IMG/VR virus record: IMGVR_UViG_3300021963_007667
Coordinates: 1 to 26,027 of that record
DNA from: a virus
Strand: one strand, 5' to 3'
DNA: 26,027 bases
The position numbers and the translations under genes were made by a program. The notes beneath the pieces were generated by a model, which did not search any database, was not told the origin of the DNA, and saw nothing but the letters and a program-made list of their open reading frames with translations. This document shows, in pieces, positions 1-25,719 of this stretch. Positions within the stretch are counted from its first letter, which is position 1. Each line of letters begins with the position of its first letter.

Positions 1-19
1 ACTCTGTAAGTCGCAATAC

Positions 20-27
20 TATTTATA
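20..27 (-). promoter_or_regulatory. Late promoter, T4-type TATAAATA
   Basis: The minus strand reads TATAAATAGTATT, a perfect match to the T4-family late promoter octamer (recognised by the gp55-type sigma factor). It lies just downstream of the terminator at 32-54, so it would start transcription of the next gene, which is outside the window. The GTA suffix is shared with the copies at 83-90 and 4702-4709. Confidence 0.6.
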
Positions 28-31
28 CAAG

Positions 32-54
32 AAAAGGTGCCGAAGCACCCTTTC
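32..54 (-). terminator. Rho-independent terminator with UUCG tetraloop
   Basis: On the minus strand GGTGC-TTCG-GCACC forms a hairpin capped by the very stable UUCG tetraloop, followed by TTTTC. It lies about 30 nt after the nuclease stop codon and probably ends the late transcript of this block. Confidence 0.8.
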
Positions 55-82
55 CACCTATAATGCGACTTACAGGTGATAC

Positions 83-2381: not shown

Positions 2382-2389
2382 TATTTAGA
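2382..2389 (-). promoter_or_regulatory. Late promoter-like octamer over the outer-membrane gene stop
   Basis: The minus strand reads TCTAAATA, 7 of 8 matches to TATAAATA, with the TAA being the stop codon of the outer-membrane protein gene. It lies about 50 nt before the holin-like start. It lacks the GTA suffix of the better copies. Confidence 0.35.
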
Positions 2390-4562
2390 ATTTGAATTTA
2401 AGTTTTGCAGATACTGCAGTGTTAGAAACACCATCATTGATTTGATGAATTCCTTCAATAACGACCATCTCTTTATAATCAACAGAAGCAGATGCTTCAA
2501 TTAATCCACTGGTTTCATAAGAACCACCAACAGTTACTCCAAATAAATCCTTTTTCTTTCCACCAAAACGGTGTGAAATATTTAGACCAACCTCACCAGA
2601 ATGTGAAGTTTTGTTTATAGCATCAATAGTTCTTCTGGATTGAATAGAACCTTTTTCAGTAAATCCATCTCTCTGATAGTTACCAACAGTGTATCCAACA
2701 AATGGAGTTATGTTCTTATTGAGGTGCCAGAATAATCTGTTATTTACAAACCACTCTTTTCCTTCTGTTGAACTTTCATTATTGAAGACACCCTGAACAT
2801 TTCTGGATACATTATATTTGTTCTGAGAAAATCCAGCATTTGTTAAGAGTGAGAATGTATTTCCACGGAACATATTGAATATTCCATAATGATTTTTGAG
2901 GAGTTTAGAAGTGCTATCAACTCCACCTAAATCAATATTCATATTATTGTATTGAGCACCAACAGTCCAGGTTGGTTTAATATCAATCTCTAATCCACCA
3001 CCAATGATTAAAGTCTTACCATTGTATCCATTCTCACCAGAAGACCAAGTATAATAGTTGTTATTGAATACTCTTACTCTGTCTGTGGTTGGCTCAGTTG
3101 GTTCGTAAATAAACAGATTTTGTAATCCACCACCAATCTTATCTAAAACTTCATACTGATCAGTGCGACCAGAAAGAACATCGTGAGTATTCTCTGTATC
3201 AACAGAAAGAAGTAATGATGCTACAACGGTTCCATCACTATAAGTATCCTGTCTTAATAAAGGAGTTTGAGTTGTAGTTGCAAAATCTCTTCTAATCTTT
3301 TGAACTCCATCCTTTTCAGATGCTTTATGAGTTACTTCTGTGGTAACAACAACTGGAAGTCCTGGTGCAGGAACAGTAACAGAGCTTAATAATGTTGGTG
3401 GTTGTGGTTCAGGTGTTGGAGTTACTTCAGGTTCAGGAGTTGGTTCTGGTGTAGGTTCTGGAGTTGGAGTTACCTCAGGTTCTGGAGTTGGTGTAGGTGT
3501 AGGTTCTGGAGTTACTTCAGGTTCTGGTGTAGGTTCTGGAGTTGGTTCAGGAGTTACCTCAGGTTCTGGTGTTGGTGTAGGTGTAGGTTCTGGAGTTGGA
3601 GTTACTTCAGGTTCTGGTGTTGGTGTAGGTGTAGGTTCTGGAGTTGGAGTTGGTGTAGGTGCTACTTCATCAACAGATGGTGCATCTGGGTTGTTTGGAG
3701 CAACAGGAGTAAATGCTTGACCATTTGCTGTTGTAGTTCCAGGTTGACTATCAACTAAAAGAACTGGTGATAGTGCAGTATCTCCAAGGTTGAACACTGC
3801 AAATCCTAAGAGATAATCACCATTAGCACCTACTTGATAGGTTGAATACTGCCATCCAGTAGAACCAAAAGAACCAGTAGAATAATCACCTGTTCCTGGA
3901 TTAGTAAATCCAAGTAATGCATAGTTTTGAAGTTGGTTATTAACTGTTACTGATGGAGATGAACCTGCACCTTGATAAACAAGTGAAGTAATGGAACCAT
4001 CATTGAAAGGAACATAATCAGTTCCAATGTAGTTCCAAGACATTGTATAGACTTTTCCAGTCTCTAATGTGACTGATTTAGTAATCCAAGCAGCATCAGT
4101 TGGATTTGGATTTCCAAGTCCTGATGCTTGTTGTTGTTGAGTGAGAAGATCTCTTATTGCTTGATTTTGCTCTGGAGTTAAACCAAGTGCTTCTGTTGCT
4201 TGGTTAAATGTTTGTTGACCGTTTGGTTGCAGTGCAGCACCAGCAGTTCCGTAAGGAGCAAACTCCCAAGTGGTTGGTGTTACTGCGGGTGCGTGATATG
4301 GGTTAGGAGAACCATCAGGTAATGTTGGACTTCCTACTGCTGGGAAAGATCCAGCATTGAAGATTACTGGATTATCAACAACACTAACACCAGTCCCTCC
4401 TCCTTCGATTGTGGCGTCTAAGGTTCCTGTTTGAGTTCCAGTGTTCCATCCTGAAGTATTTCCAGTCTCAAAATCTGTACCAGAAATTGTATCTGCGAAT
4501 GCTGTTGGTGCCCCCATTAAAAGAGCAGACGCTACAGCAAGCGCCCTTGTAGCGTAAGACAT
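2385..4562 (-). CDS. Secreted autotransporter-like outer-membrane protein with Pro-rich linker
   Basis: A 725-aa protein in three parts. A signal peptide covers residues 1-23 (cut after PTAFA). A predicted surface or periplasmic part, about 24-300, is rich in Gly, Thr, Asn and Ser, opening with a [10 protein letters not shown] segment typical of secreted beta-sandwich repeats. A Pro-Thr-Glu linker spans about 302-389 ([13 protein letters not shown] units). The C-terminal part, about 395-725, has alternating aromatic/hydrophobic residues ([17 protein letters not shown]) and ends KLKFKF, with the terminal Phe usual for outer-membrane beta-barrels. This suggests a barrel carrying an exported passenger. 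It lies between the lysozyme and holin-like genes and is preceded by a long hairpin that hides its ribosome site. Function unknown: superinfection exclusion, adhesion or envelope disruption are possible. Confidence 0.65.
3395..3659 (-). repeat. In-frame TPEP-type tandem repeat
   Basis: About 265 bp of degenerate short repeats encode [15 protein letters not shown] and [10 protein letters not shown] units of the linker in the outer-membrane protein. Such repeats slip easily, so linker length may vary between relatives. They also create long open frames on the plus strand that are not genes. Confidence 0.85.
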
Positions 4563-4567
4563 AGAAA

Positions 4568-4647
4568 GTCCTCTGTGACTTAGTGTGTACTAAACGAAAC
4601 AAACTAAAGTTGTTTAAAAGTAAAGTATTCACCAAGTCACAAAGGAC
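4568..4647 (-). promoter_or_regulatory. Ribosome-site-sequestering leader hairpin
   Basis: In the minus-strand RNA, 4647-4630 (GUCCUUUGUGACUUGGUG) pairs along its full 18 nt with 4585-4568 (CACUAAGUCACAGAGGAC), using two G-U wobbles, around a 44-nt loop. The 3' arm contains AGAGGA, the Shine-Dalgarno of the outer-membrane gene, ending about 6 nt before its ATG. The structure should block initiation until opened by a ribosome, protein, RNA or RNase. Both imperfect positions are wobble pairs only in the minus-strand transcript, as expected for a selected RNA. Confidence 0.65.
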
Positions 4648-4701
4648 TCGGAGTATGTAGATTCAGATCAGTTAAGATCAAGAATCAGTTATGATTTCTA
4701 C

Positions 4702-4709
4702 TATTTATC
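4702..4709 (-). promoter_or_regulatory. Late promoter for the outer-membrane protein gene
   Basis: The minus strand reads GATAAATAGTAGA, 7 of 8 matches to TATAAATA. Its TAA is the lysozyme stop codon. Transcription from here would give a leader of about 130 nt containing the complete ribosome-site hairpin. Confidence 0.55.
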
Positions 4710-5373
4710 CTTTTTTCCAAGCTTCACCTTCTGCTTTTCTTCTACGAGCAAGTCCTGCTTCTACATTTGAACCAGGATTGCGATAGAGATAAAGAGCATC
4801 AGGAACTAAGTCCCATTCTTTATTCTTCAAGCGTTTAGTAATAGTATTAAAGTTATCGCCACCGTAAAAACCGGCACCAAGATTATAAGCAAAGCTGAGC
4901 AGAGCGCCTCTTTGTCCATCTGACATTTCACTCCAATGTGGAATTTTTCGTAGAGCAGGAAGAAATTCCTTCTTACATTGATCGATAAGAAGTTGATCTG
5001 CTTCCGTTTGAGTTAGAGTATCACCCATTTTAAATGGTGATCCATCCTTCTTACGGGTAGAACCCCAACCAATAGTAATTGGAAGATTGCCAGTAAGAGG
5101 ATCAGGATATGCCTTGAGATGGCATCCTTCAAACTCTTTAATTAACTTGATGCCCATTTGTGGGACATCATCACCACCTGTTACAGGAGCTGCAGCAGCA
5201 GTGGTTGCTGGTGCAGCATTAGTCTTTTTTCCTCTATAAATCTCCGCCCAGTCTACATTATCCTCAAGATATTGCACTGGTAAATTATCTTCTAACCATT
5301 GGATTGCTTTGACGTGGTTAGGATTCTTCTCGTCATAAAACTTGAAGAAGTTATGTAAATCGATTCTTGCCAT
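4705..5373 (-). CDS. Endolysin, GH24 lysozyme with extra N-terminal module
   Basis: A 222-aa protein. Residues about 70-222 are a T4-type lysozyme domain: FEG with catalytic Glu82, YPDP with Asp91, ITIGWG with Thr100, matching the family Glu-Asp-Thr triad (Glu11-Asp20-Thr26 of T4 lysozyme) with a small insertion. It should cut the glycan strands of peptidoglycan. Residues 1-47 (starting MARIDLHNFFKFYD) are not lysozyme and closely match the N-terminus of the C39-type peptidase at 5472. An Ala/Thr-rich linker (51-68) joins the two. There is no signal peptide, so release would need a holin, for which 2016-2330 is the candidate. The ATG has GGAG 6 nt upstream, and its first 23 nt overlap the 48-aa ORF. 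A virion-borne rather than lysis role is possible. Confidence 0.85.
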   Translation of the reverse strand: MARIDLHNFFKFYDEKNPNHVKAIQWLEDNLPVQYLEDNVDWAEIYRGKKTNAAPATTAAAAPVTGGDDVPQMGIKLIKEFEGCHLKAYPDPLTGNLPITIGWGSTRKKDGSPFKMGDTLTQTEADQLLIDQCKKEFLPALRKIPHWSEMSDGQRGALLSFAYNLGAGFYGGDNFNTITKRLKNKEWDLVPDALYLYRNPGSNVEAGLARRRKAEGEAWKKG

Positions 5374-5497: not shown

Positions 5498-6143
5498 CAT
5501 TACCTCCTGGGCACCAACGATGCTTGAGAACTGCTTTGGTGTAAATAGTCTTCTTACCGTTAGTCACAGGTCCAGTGTAGTTATCGTTTAGTGAACCATA
5601 TGGATCATTAACGTAATATCCCTTACCATCTGGTGTCTTGCCGATTACAACACACATGTGCCCACCAGTAGGTGCAGAAAGAGAACCCCTATGGAGTATG
5701 CCAATAACAACGGGCTTCCCAGCGTCCAGACTTTTATCGATATCAGCAAAAGATAAATTGTAACTAAAGTGTGACTTAACGCCATAACCTGCCAGAACCT
5801 TCGTCTGTACGGCGTGATCAGTCGTATCACCGATTGCAAATACTTTCTTAACGTATTCGTCATCGCCTTTGATGCTACCTGGCTTGAGGAAAGCAAGACA
5901 CATAGCGCACGATGAAGAGTTGCAGGTTCTATGTGCATCTCTGTAGTTGTCTACTTGATTGAAATATGGAACTGCAAGAACTGCTGGTGTAGGGGGTTTA
6001 GTTCTAAAAATTCCAATCCAATCTGTTTCTGCATCATCTAAAAACTGAGCAGGAAGGTTATCCTCTAACCACTGAACCGCTGCAACATGATTTGAATTGC
6101 TATCATCATAAAACTTAAAAAAGTTATGAAGATCTAGGGTCAT
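5472..6143 (-). CDS. C39-type (papain-like) cysteine peptidase with shared N-terminal module
   Basis: A 223-aa protein. Residues about 55-215 look like the Peptidase_C39_2 fold: CNSSSCAM at 74-81 with candidate nucleophile Cys74, GGHMCVVIG at 160-168 with His162, and YVNDPYG at 177-183 carrying the Asn/Asp of the triad. Such domains cut peptides, often in cell-wall or secretion contexts. Residues 1-47 share DLHNFFKFYD, QWLEDNLP and DWxxIxR with the lysozyme at 4705, so the same module was joined to two catalytic domains. No signal peptide. A perfect late promoter lies about 25 nt upstream of the ATG. A peptidoglycan cross-link peptidase is the simplest reading, but cleavage specificity cannot be read from sequence. 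Confidence 0.7.
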   Translation of the reverse strand: MTLDLHNFFKFYDDSNSNHVAAVQWLEDNLPAQFLDDAETDWIGIFRTKPPTPAVLAVPYFNQVDNYRDAHRTCNSSSCAMCLAFLKPGSIKGDDEYVKKVFAIGDTTDHAVQTKVLAGYGVKSHFSYNLSFADIDKSLDAGKPVVIGILHRGSLSAPTGGHMCVVIGKTPDGKGYYVNDPYGSLNDNYTGPVTNGKKTIYTKAVLKHRWCPGGNDGWGRIFD

Positions 6144-6167: not shown

Positions 6168-6175
6168 TATTTATA
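6168..6175 (-). promoter_or_regulatory. Late promoter for the lytic-enzyme block
   Basis: A perfect TATAAATA on the minus strand, 25 nt before the peptidase ATG. It directly abuts the U-tract of the terminator at 6176-6200, so early transcription ends exactly where late transcription would begin. Confidence 0.65.
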
Positions 6176-6200
6176 AAAAAAGCGCCCTTTTGGACGCTTT
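6176..6200 (-). terminator. Terminator of the hli/ferredoxin/peroxiredoxin operon
   Basis: Minus strand AAAGCGTCC-AAAA-GGGCGCTTT forms a 9-bp stem (one U-G pair) followed by further T residues, 9 nt after the peroxiredoxin stop. Confidence 0.85.
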
Positions 6201-7986: not shown

Positions 7987-8016
7987 AAAAAAAAAACCAC
8001 CCCAGAAAGGAGTGGT
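7987..8016 (-). terminator. Terminator of the porin gene
   Basis: Minus strand ACCACTCC-TTTCT-GGGGTGGT (8-bp stem with one U-G pair) followed by a run of about nine T residues, 25 nt after the porin stop. Confidence 0.9.
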
Positions 8017-8040
8017 CTAACTCAACTTATGAGTGGATTA

Positions 8041-9510
8041 TCAGAACTTGAACGTTGTCTGAATTACACCACCCCAGTTAGAGGAGTTGTCGGCAAGACG
8101 TTGGTTGTCACTACCGTAGATGATAGCAGGAGTGACGCTGATGTTATCAGACACTTGATACTTGTAGAAGATTTCAAGAAGAGTGGACTTCTCAAGGTCT
8201 TCCCCAGTAGGAGCCTGACCGATAGCAACACCAGCGGAGTTACCGTCAACAAATACATCGTCCCAAGTCAGACCAGCAAACCAAGACTGACTATTGGTAG
8301 CAGCACTTTCAGTACCACTCACAGTGTTCCAACCATAACCAGCAGATACAGAAGGAATGATGCCCGACTTTTCAGGTTGCCAGTAAGCGTTCAGTGCATA
8401 ACCATTAGAGGTTTGACCAGGAGCAAGAGCACCAGAAGCACCATTCAGACCGTTATAGGTGCGAACACGAGTACCTTCAGTACCATAACGGTAACCGAAT
8501 GCAGCACCCCAGTTAGTACCACGATAACCGATTTGTGCCAGAGTATTCAGAGCACCAGTCTCATCAAACTCACCACGAGTGCTATCTTGACCTGCTTGTG
8601 CGACATAGTTCACACCAGCAACAAGACCTTTGGTTCCATACTGAACACCGAAACCAGCACCAGTAGCCTTGTTATAAACACCAGGAGCACCAGCAGTGCT
8701 GAAGAAATCAAGAATACCAGACTTATATGCAGTAGGCACCCAGGAGATTTCGGTGTTACGAACCAGAGCACCAGCAGTCAGAGTAGTGCTGTTATTGAAA
8801 GCAGGGAACGAATAATACAGACGGTCGATAACTACGTTGTTACCAACTTCGCTAGAAGTATCGTCTGCTTTATCCAGTTTAAAGATTGAAGAACTGGAAC
8901 CGAAAGGATCACCACTGAAGTTAGCAGAACGCAGACGAGTGCGAAGCAGATCCTTACCAGTGAACGAAGTATCCAGGTTCAGACGGAGATCGTAGTTGAA
9001 TGCAGTGTGAGTTACATCACCACCTTTGGTTTGGTAGTCATCAACACCACCAAGAACAAAGTTTGCTTCACCACGGAGTTTGGTTGTGGTAGAGAACTGC
9101 TGTGCTTCAAGAGTAGTGACCTGTGCTTCCAGACTTGTAACCTTACCTTGAATTACAGTCAGTTCATTGCGGAACTCATTAGCAAGACGCTTCAGTTCAT
9201 CTGTGTTTTCAGTTACACGATCCAGGCAAGCATTGAGAAGTGCTGCTGCCTCATAACGGGTCATTGCTTTGCCACCACTAAAGGTGCCATTTGGATAACC
9301 AGCAACGCAACCATAACGCTCTACAAGGTTGCTGAGTGCCTGATAAGCCCAGTCAGTGGGCTTTACATCAGACAGTTGTGAGATGCTTGTGACCTGCTCA
9401 GAGGTATTGTATTGGTTGACTGCTGCCATATTAAGATCTGCCGCATTCGCAGCAACAGGAGCAACCATTCCCAGAGCAACAGGTGCAAGCATCAGTTGTT
9501 TGAGTTTCAT
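8041..9510 (-). CDS. Cyanobacterial-type SLH/OprB outer-membrane porin
   Basis: A 489-aa protein with the full layout of Synechococcus/Prochlorococcus major porins (SomA-like). Signal peptide 1-23 (cut after PVAANA). SLH domain about 43-100 (LSDVKPTDWAYQAL, GCVAGYPNGTF, TRYEAAALLNACL), which anchors to the cell-wall polymer. Coiled coil about 101-140 (LKRLANEFRNEL, VTSLEAQVTTLEAQ). OprB-type beta-barrel about 145-489, ending TTFKF with terminal Phe. It should insert in the host outer membrane and pass small solutes. It forms its own transcription unit, with leader hairpin and terminator. Base composition is visibly richer in G+C than the flanking glycan operon, suggesting acquisition from a host. 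Nutrient uptake during infection or replacement of the phage receptor are possible roles. Confidence 0.88.
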   Translation of the reverse strand: MKLKQLMLAPVALGMVAPVAANAADLNMAAVNQYNTSEQVTSISQLSDVKPTDWAYQALSNLVERYGCVAGYPNGTFSGGKAMTRYEAAALLNACLDRVTENTDELKRLANEFRNELTVIQGKVTSLEAQVTTLEAQQFSTTTKLRGEANFVLGGVDDYQTKGGDVTHTAFNYDLRLNLDTSFTGKDLLRTRLRSANFSGDPFGSSSSIFKLDKADDTSSEVGNNVVIDRLYYSFPAFNNSTTLTAGALVRNTEISWVPTAYKSGILDFFSTAGAPGVYNKATGAGFGVQYGTKGLVAGVNYVAQAGQDSTRGEFDETGALNTLAQIGYRGTNWGAAFGYRYGTEGTRVRTYNGLNGASGALAPGQTSNGYALNAYWQPEKSGIIPSVSAGYGWNTVSGTESAATNSQSWFAGLTWDDVFVDGNSAGVAIGQAPTGEDLEKSTLLEIFYKYQVSDNISVTPAIIYGSDNQRLADNSSNWGGVIQTTFKF

Positions 9511-25603: not shown

Positions 25604-25719
25604 CTGTAACTCAGGCTCGCCACCAATTCTTTGACTGGAAATTGGAAACCAGGCGGAGAAAGAATTCCCCATCCGCACCACTTGCTCTTGAGAGAAGCAA
25701 GAAACTCATAAGGGGTCAT
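25588..25719 (-). CDS. 43-aa protein (or structured RNA), unknown
   Basis: The ORF starts MTPYEFLASLKSKWCGWG and ends LSYRRGVA. GGTGGAG lies 5-6 nt before the ATG at 25719, 20 nt after the stop of the membrane protein upstream. Codons read cleanly to a TAA that falls in the terminator loop. Small, with Trp/Cys/Pro in the middle; no family recognised. The same stretch contains three short inverted repeats ahead of the terminator and is visibly richer in G+C than its surroundings, so an RNA role is the alternative. Confidence 0.55.
   Translation of the reverse strand: MTPYEFLASLKSKWCGWGILSPPGFQFPVKELVASLSYRRGVA

Follow-up and report, generated by a model that had tools for sequence, protein, structure and literature searches.

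A very long RNA hairpin lies directly against the start codon of an autotransporter-like outer-membrane protein (OMP) gene in freshwater cyanophages, and from its sequence and conservation we consider it probable, at roughly 0.55, that it is a cis-acting translation brake on this gene at its junction with an endolysin gene. The window, that is, the whole stretch of DNA that was analyzed, is a 26-kb virus contig near the freshwater Kyanoviridae DSL-LC02 and DSL-LC03, the genomes of which were assembled from Dishui Lake (PMC10611076). The evidence on the hairpin is comparative throughout, with about 100 relatives of the OMP protein drawn from IMG/VR and leader sequences that come mostly from metagenome contigs.

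The hairpin and its position at the endolysin-OMP junction

All features of the junction lie on the minus strand, in the order lysozyme gene, GATAAATA motif, small hairpin (HP1), long hairpin (HP2), U-rich spacer and OMP start codon. The lysozyme (endolysin) gene occupies 4705–5373 (PF00959, E 7e-23), and the 725-aa OMP gene occupies 2385–4562 with its AUG at 4562–4560. In OMP loci of lytic cyanophages, two endolysin genes adjoin the OMP gene. The 5' arm of HP2, GAGUCCUUUGUGACUUGGUG (4649–4630), and its 3' arm, CACUAAGUCACAGAGGACUU (4585–4566), form 20 pairs without interruption, three of them G-U wobbles; an earlier note on this DNA, which had described an 18-bp helix with two wobbles, was right but two pairs short, having seen the inner part of this helix. 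The Shine-Dalgarno sequence AGAGGA that it placed in the 3' arm is found at 4569–4574, wholly within that arm and 6 nt 5' of the AUG. The upper part of HP2 (4586–4629), delineated by alignment, consists of an ACUuuAC/GUuuAGU helix and an apical stem. Just upstream of the 5' arm, ACAUA (4654–4658) can pair with UAUGU (4563–4559), which contains the AUG, and HP1 (GAUUC-UU-GAUC ... GAUC-U-GAAUC) lies further upstream at 4660–4686. Between stem and coding sequence, the U-rich spacer and AUG region (4559–4565) reads UCU AUG in the window and UUUUU AUG in many relatives.

Folding of the leader, a check that the earlier note had proposed, gave a minimum free energy of -54.3 kcal/mol compared to -27.7 +/- 3.9 for dinucleotide shuffles (z -6.9), with 0 of 200 shuffles as low. 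When one mismatch is allowed, the window leader forms a helix of up to 20 pairs, and the maximum in 1000 dinucleotide shuffles was 19. In DSL-LC02, opening the region from -20 to +12 around the OMP start costs 28.0 kcal/mol against a mean of 8.4 (sd 3.9), ranking 1 of 226 coding sequences, and the helix score of 37.6 (versus 13.8 +/- 3.7) is the first among all coding-sequence starts scored. The second-best helix in that scoring belongs to the gene after OMP (86041, minus strand), a 15-bp hairpin AUACUCUAGGUAUUA/UAAUACCUAGAGUAU whose end lies 9 nt before the AUG (L001, ~8010–8063). A search of the whole window against Rfam at gathering score yielded no family at the hairpin; the sole match was the wcaG RNA motif (RF01761, 97 bits) at 25609–25709 on the minus strand, upstream of a sugar-nucleotide gene cluster.

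The GATAAATA motif, of the T4 late-promoter type, lies at 4702–4709, where it overlaps the end of the lysozyme gene and, as the earlier note had said, stands upstream of the whole structure. The promoter assignment is inferred from the T4 consensus, which predicts a transcript start at about 4695 and an OMP leader of ~133 nt. The window contains 4 copies of ATAAATA against 12.4 expected, all four on the coding (minus) strand, and the main coding strand of DSL-LC02 has 19 copies of exact TATAAATA, the opposite strand a single one. Late genes of DSL-LC02 with exact TATAAATA have the motif 16–51 nt from their AUG, whereas the OMP motif is 138 nt away, so that the OMP leader appears unusually long and dedicated. 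Wherever the case is clear, the motif stands outside the hairpin: 51 of 55 leaders have NATAAATA on the upstream side of the 5' arm. In the loop and 3' arm of type I and type II leaders (defined below), nothing convincingly like TATAAATA was seen, the best octamers being 2–3 mismatches off.

Elsewhere in the window, at 6168–6200 (minus strand), a strong terminator, AAAGCGUCC AAAA GGGCGCUUUUUUU, is fused to TATAAATA before a C39 peptidase gene, with a T run common to terminator and late promoter. At 3–75 (minus strand), a 12-bp inverted repeat CUGUAAGUCGCA/UGCGACUUACAG surrounds a terminator-like hairpin (GGUGCUUCGGCACC UUUUCU) and a TATAAATA motif in a layout like that of T4 gene e, the downstream gene lying beyond the window end.

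The protein encoded behind the hairpin has a signal peptide, an N-terminal region, a linker rich in Pro/Glu repeats and a C-terminal autotransporter-type beta-barrel. The autotransporter beta-domain PF03797 was detected in 3 of 15 family members, the window's own sequence giving no informative Pfam match. An AlphaFold2 model built with 13 relatives, of low overall quality (mean pLDDT 52.8), has its strands at 391–722, with pLDDT of ~70–89 over most of 391–660 in the C-terminal barrel. Against the PDB, this barrel matches the NalP, EstA and BrkA translocators at E about 1e-9, NalP being best (TM 0.76–0.78). As modeled, OMP would therefore carry the C-terminal translocator barrel by which type V autotransporters are recognized. 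The toxicity in the 'potentially toxic exported protein' of the earlier note is presumed; what the analysis supports is an autotransporter-type outer-membrane barrel. Leader and barrel are retained from phage to phage despite strong variation in the N-terminal regions of OMP, and leader plus signal peptide recombine between OMP types (L131, L133, L149, L150).

Conservation of the fold in two unrelated leader types

All 54 distinct endolysin-OMP leaders that were scored place a hairpin against the AUG, with opening of -20 to +12 costing 11–33 kcal/mol, and three further leaders found later adopt the hairpin fold too. Type I leaders, including those of the window, DSL-LC02 and most contigs, follow the pattern AGUCCUCUGUGAC...GUCAYAGAGGACU, of which L135 and the shorter leaders of the DSL-LC03 kind seem to be distant variants. 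Type II leaders (n=10, for example L065 and L070) follow AAGGUGAGUUGUGUUUGGUAG...CUACCACACCAACUCACCUU, a sequence unrelated to type I, and the OMP encoded behind the type II leader of L070 is 91% identical to that of the window. Type II leaders contain no Shine-Dalgarno sequence; their hairpin is equally long, sits at the same position and covers the AUG-proximal stretch. What is conserved is thus a hairpin that covers the place where ribosomes land, and not the burial of a Shine-Dalgarno sequence as the earlier note had put it. Of that note's reading, the occlusion of the start site is supported.

In an alignment of 41 leaders, 97.1% of type I cells in the helix are paired, and pairing falls to 26–44% when the partners are slid against each other. 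Changes on both sides of a pair were seen in 19 cells and at 6 pairs, compared to 4.8 cells and 2.1 pairs in shuffles, so the alignment of relatives' leaders that the earlier note had suggested does yield compensatory change above shuffles. Type II leaders are 98.5% paired, with compensatory A-U/C-G and G-C/A-U changes. The neighboring helices are kept as well: HP1 is paired in 99.7% of cells of the 41-leader alignment (type II has a different hairpin at the same place), upper helices 4 and 5 of HP2 in 98.5% and 94.7%, and the ACAUA/UAUGU helix with the AUG in 97.5% of type I cells, the AUG side of this last helix being invariable so that no covariation is possible there. The apical loop of HP2 is C(UUCG)G in many relatives, which is a feature at the RNA level. 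In DSL-LC02, the Shine-Dalgarno AGAGGA has become AGGAGA and the partner strand has changed along with it. The only frequently broken pairs lie mid-stem (alignment columns 73–75 with 140–142), and the stem base holding the Shine-Dalgarno is invariant. The U run after the stem is weak and unconserved (UUUCU, UUCUU, UUUUA).

The strand on which the structure is maintained can be read from the wobble pairs. In the outer helix of the 41 relatives, 122 cells are G-U and only 6 are A-C; read in antisense, the two counts would be swapped, so the sense RNA is the conserved strand. This backs the argument of the earlier note for selection on the RNA, which had rested on the two wobbles it described, both of which are A-C in the antisense. 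Few independent compensatory events can be counted within type I, most of whose leaders are closely related; the argument for a conserved RNA structure rests on type I together with the unrelated type II and the strand asymmetry.

Several leaders show further peculiarities. Type II leaders such as L070 (4668–4770) contain GAGUUG/CAACUC elements in series, of which 1:2, 2:3, 3:4 and 4:5 can pair, resembling attenuator-like alternative folds, and their 5' arm contains AGGUGA, complementary to the 16S 3' end. In L015 (~5569–5700, the contig of L090), a deletion fuses the hairpin loop to the interior of the OMP coding sequence, with loss of the 3' arm, AUG and signal peptide. The idea that the hairpin arm is a dispersed repeat was set aside, as an arm-pattern scan of the collection gave mostly OMP leaders and a few unrelated matches, about the chance number by an expectation estimated by hand.

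A proposed translation brake and competing explanations

Other gene orders provide natural controls. OMP orthologues L147, L148, L158 and L165 follow a different gene, carry no hairpin (opening costs 3.9–5.0 kcal/mol) and have a TAAATA motif ~30 nt before the OMP AUG, so the OMP gene does not always need a brake. The earlier note had held in advance that relatives with the same gene and no pairing at this position would count against its proposal, and on these four leaders the claim that the OMP gene needs a switch fails. Conversely, in S-CREM1, S-PM2, S-CRM01, S-CAM7 and S-SRM01, where the lysozyme is followed by other genes, the next start is not immediately preceded by such a hairpin; this control is partial, as a stable hairpin and U run do occur at a greater distance downstream of the lysozyme in S-PM2 and S-SRM01, before opposite-strand genes. 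A fixed lysozyme terminator was rejected on the same five phages. In L150/L128, the adjoining coding sequence resembles a different lytic enzyme (judged by eye) and the leader is still kept. Together, these cases indicate that the hairpin goes with the endolysin-OMP junction and not with either gene alone.

In the brake that we propose, transcription from the late-type promoter at the lysozyme end, and read-through from the endolysin operon, would yield mRNA with the hairpin leader, in which the small hairpin would fold first, followed by the very long hairpin ending against the start codon. In type I, the latter would take up the Shine-Dalgarno in full and probably the AUG as well; in every type, it would cover the stretch that a 30S ribosome must occupy. 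Since the promoter precedes both arms and the inner stem is made first, closure of the helix is expected once the 3' arm has been transcribed, after which little translation should occur as long as the helix is neither opened nor cut. No opener was found, a conserved alternative pairing having been sought by eye only. Opening by a leader peptide was rejected because the short TTG/GTG frames through the 5' arm in the window are broken by indels in relatives (by eye), and opening by ribosomes finishing the lysozyme because their stop, ~55 nt upstream of the 5' arm, was judged too far; an RNA thermometer seems unlikely, since a 20-bp helix with an opening cost of ~28 kcal/mol is far more stable than such elements.

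The main rival to occlusion is termination, possibly partial, which we regard as a possible but distinctly less probable account. The hairpin would here be an intrinsic terminator or attenuator ending the endolysin and GATAAATA-promoter transcripts before the AUG, OMP being expressed by read-through only and the Shine-Dalgarno burial being a by-product. A U-rich sequence does follow the hairpin in every leader type, and the tails of hairpin leaders score 2.2–5.1 (median 3.65), against 2.2 +/- 0.8 for ordinary starts and 5.6 for clear terminators; terminator-like hairpins with U runs also stand against the AUGs of DSL-LC02 genes 20521, 120660 and 106645, and an element that tracks the junction and not the OMP gene would suit this account. 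However, the OMP promoter motif lies upstream of the hairpin, where the clear terminator at 6179–6200 instead precedes its promoter, the U run is weak and unconserved, the five phages' lysozymes with other downstream genes lack such a start-adjacent hairpin, and type I leaders retain the pairing with the AUG (97.5%). The hairpin was also absent from a terminator scan, although that scan allows only loops of 3–8 nt. Like cyanophage intrinsic terminators, the OMP hairpin has a U-rich run and lies between two same-strand genes; unlike them, it has a longer, less G+C-rich stem, a structured loop of ~44 nt and a short, interrupted U run, and it lies downstream of a promoter motif and against an AUG. 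Occlusion is preferred since the landing site is covered in all types, the type I Shine-Dalgarno is well spaced and stays paired despite sequence change, and the AUG can pair; the two may act together. The 'switch' of the earlier note is not supported in the form in which it was given, as the data would suit a constant brake or a leaky terminator just as well. A further reading is a late-phase switch, in which the hairpin would be closed in all transcripts and the autotransporter would be expressed when cleavage, a trans RNA or a protein of phage or host actively opens it, and not through promoter position as in T4 gene e. The device would then have been built at least two times from unrelated sequences at the same junction. 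This switch strikes us as doubtful.

In other phages, RNase III is an established means of relieving leader structures, and the duplex of ~20 bp with stacked upper helices might likewise be a processing site, at which cleavage by this double-strand RNase of the host separates the endolysin and OMP mRNAs and maybe frees the OMP start, making the hairpin both lock and key. The frequently broken pairs lie only mid-stem, away from the invariant Shine-Dalgarno base, which favors this account, but that variation may simply reflect relaxed constraint and a paired remnant might still hide the Shine-Dalgarno; we consider such processing improbable. Least probable is timing of the T4 gene e type, in which early read-through RNA would form the hairpin and late RNA would start inside it, free of the 5' arm. 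It concerns the same phage group, the same general phenomenon and adjoining genes that are lysis genes, and the arrangement is seen elsewhere in DSL-LC02 (OR032571), where the starts 104881, 120660, 19644 (baseplate wedge), 163064 and 42684 (minus strand) have a promoter-like motif between or overlapping the hairpin arms and, on sequence, appear to be of the T4 gene e arrangement. For OMP, the motif upstream of the arms in 51 of 55 leaders and the lack of a convincing TATAAATA-like site between the arms in types I and II exclude this timing unless an unrecognized promoter exists.

Relation to start-site hairpins of T4-like phages

In T4, inhibitory helices cover the start sites of e, soc, 49 and I-TevI, the one at e having a 100-fold effect, and such start-site hairpins are also predicted in T4 relatives; for e, late promoters inside the hairpin give a late mRNA without the 5' strand (PMC3014915). 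The OMP leader resembles these cases in belonging to a T4-like phage, in adjoining lysis genes as e is itself a lysis gene, and, in type I, in having the Shine-Dalgarno and probably the AUG within a stable helix. It differs from e in that its promoter motif lies outside both arms, so that every transcript from it would carry the whole hairpin, and from the T4 hairpins in that one of its leader types has no Shine-Dalgarno. The split ribosome-binding sites of T4 genes 25 and 38 likewise have a hairpin directly upstream of a late-gene AUG, but its place is between Shine-Dalgarno and AUG, where it promotes initiation (PMC3014915), whereas in OMP type I the 3' arm itself holds the Shine-Dalgarno. 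Upstream of the OMP stem, no further Shine-Dalgarno was seen.

Start-hiding hairpins in T4-like phages have been known from a few coliphage genes, the best studied of which is explained by a promoter inside the hairpin, an explanation that does not fit OMP with its promoter motif outside. The OMP hairpin is conserved across freshwater cyanophages and has in places given way to one of the same shape but unrelated sequence. If it is the brake that we think probable, the output of a phage-encoded, autotransporter-like gene next to the endolysins would be kept low, and the leader of this gene offers a simple, testable case for how cyanophage late genes are tuned.
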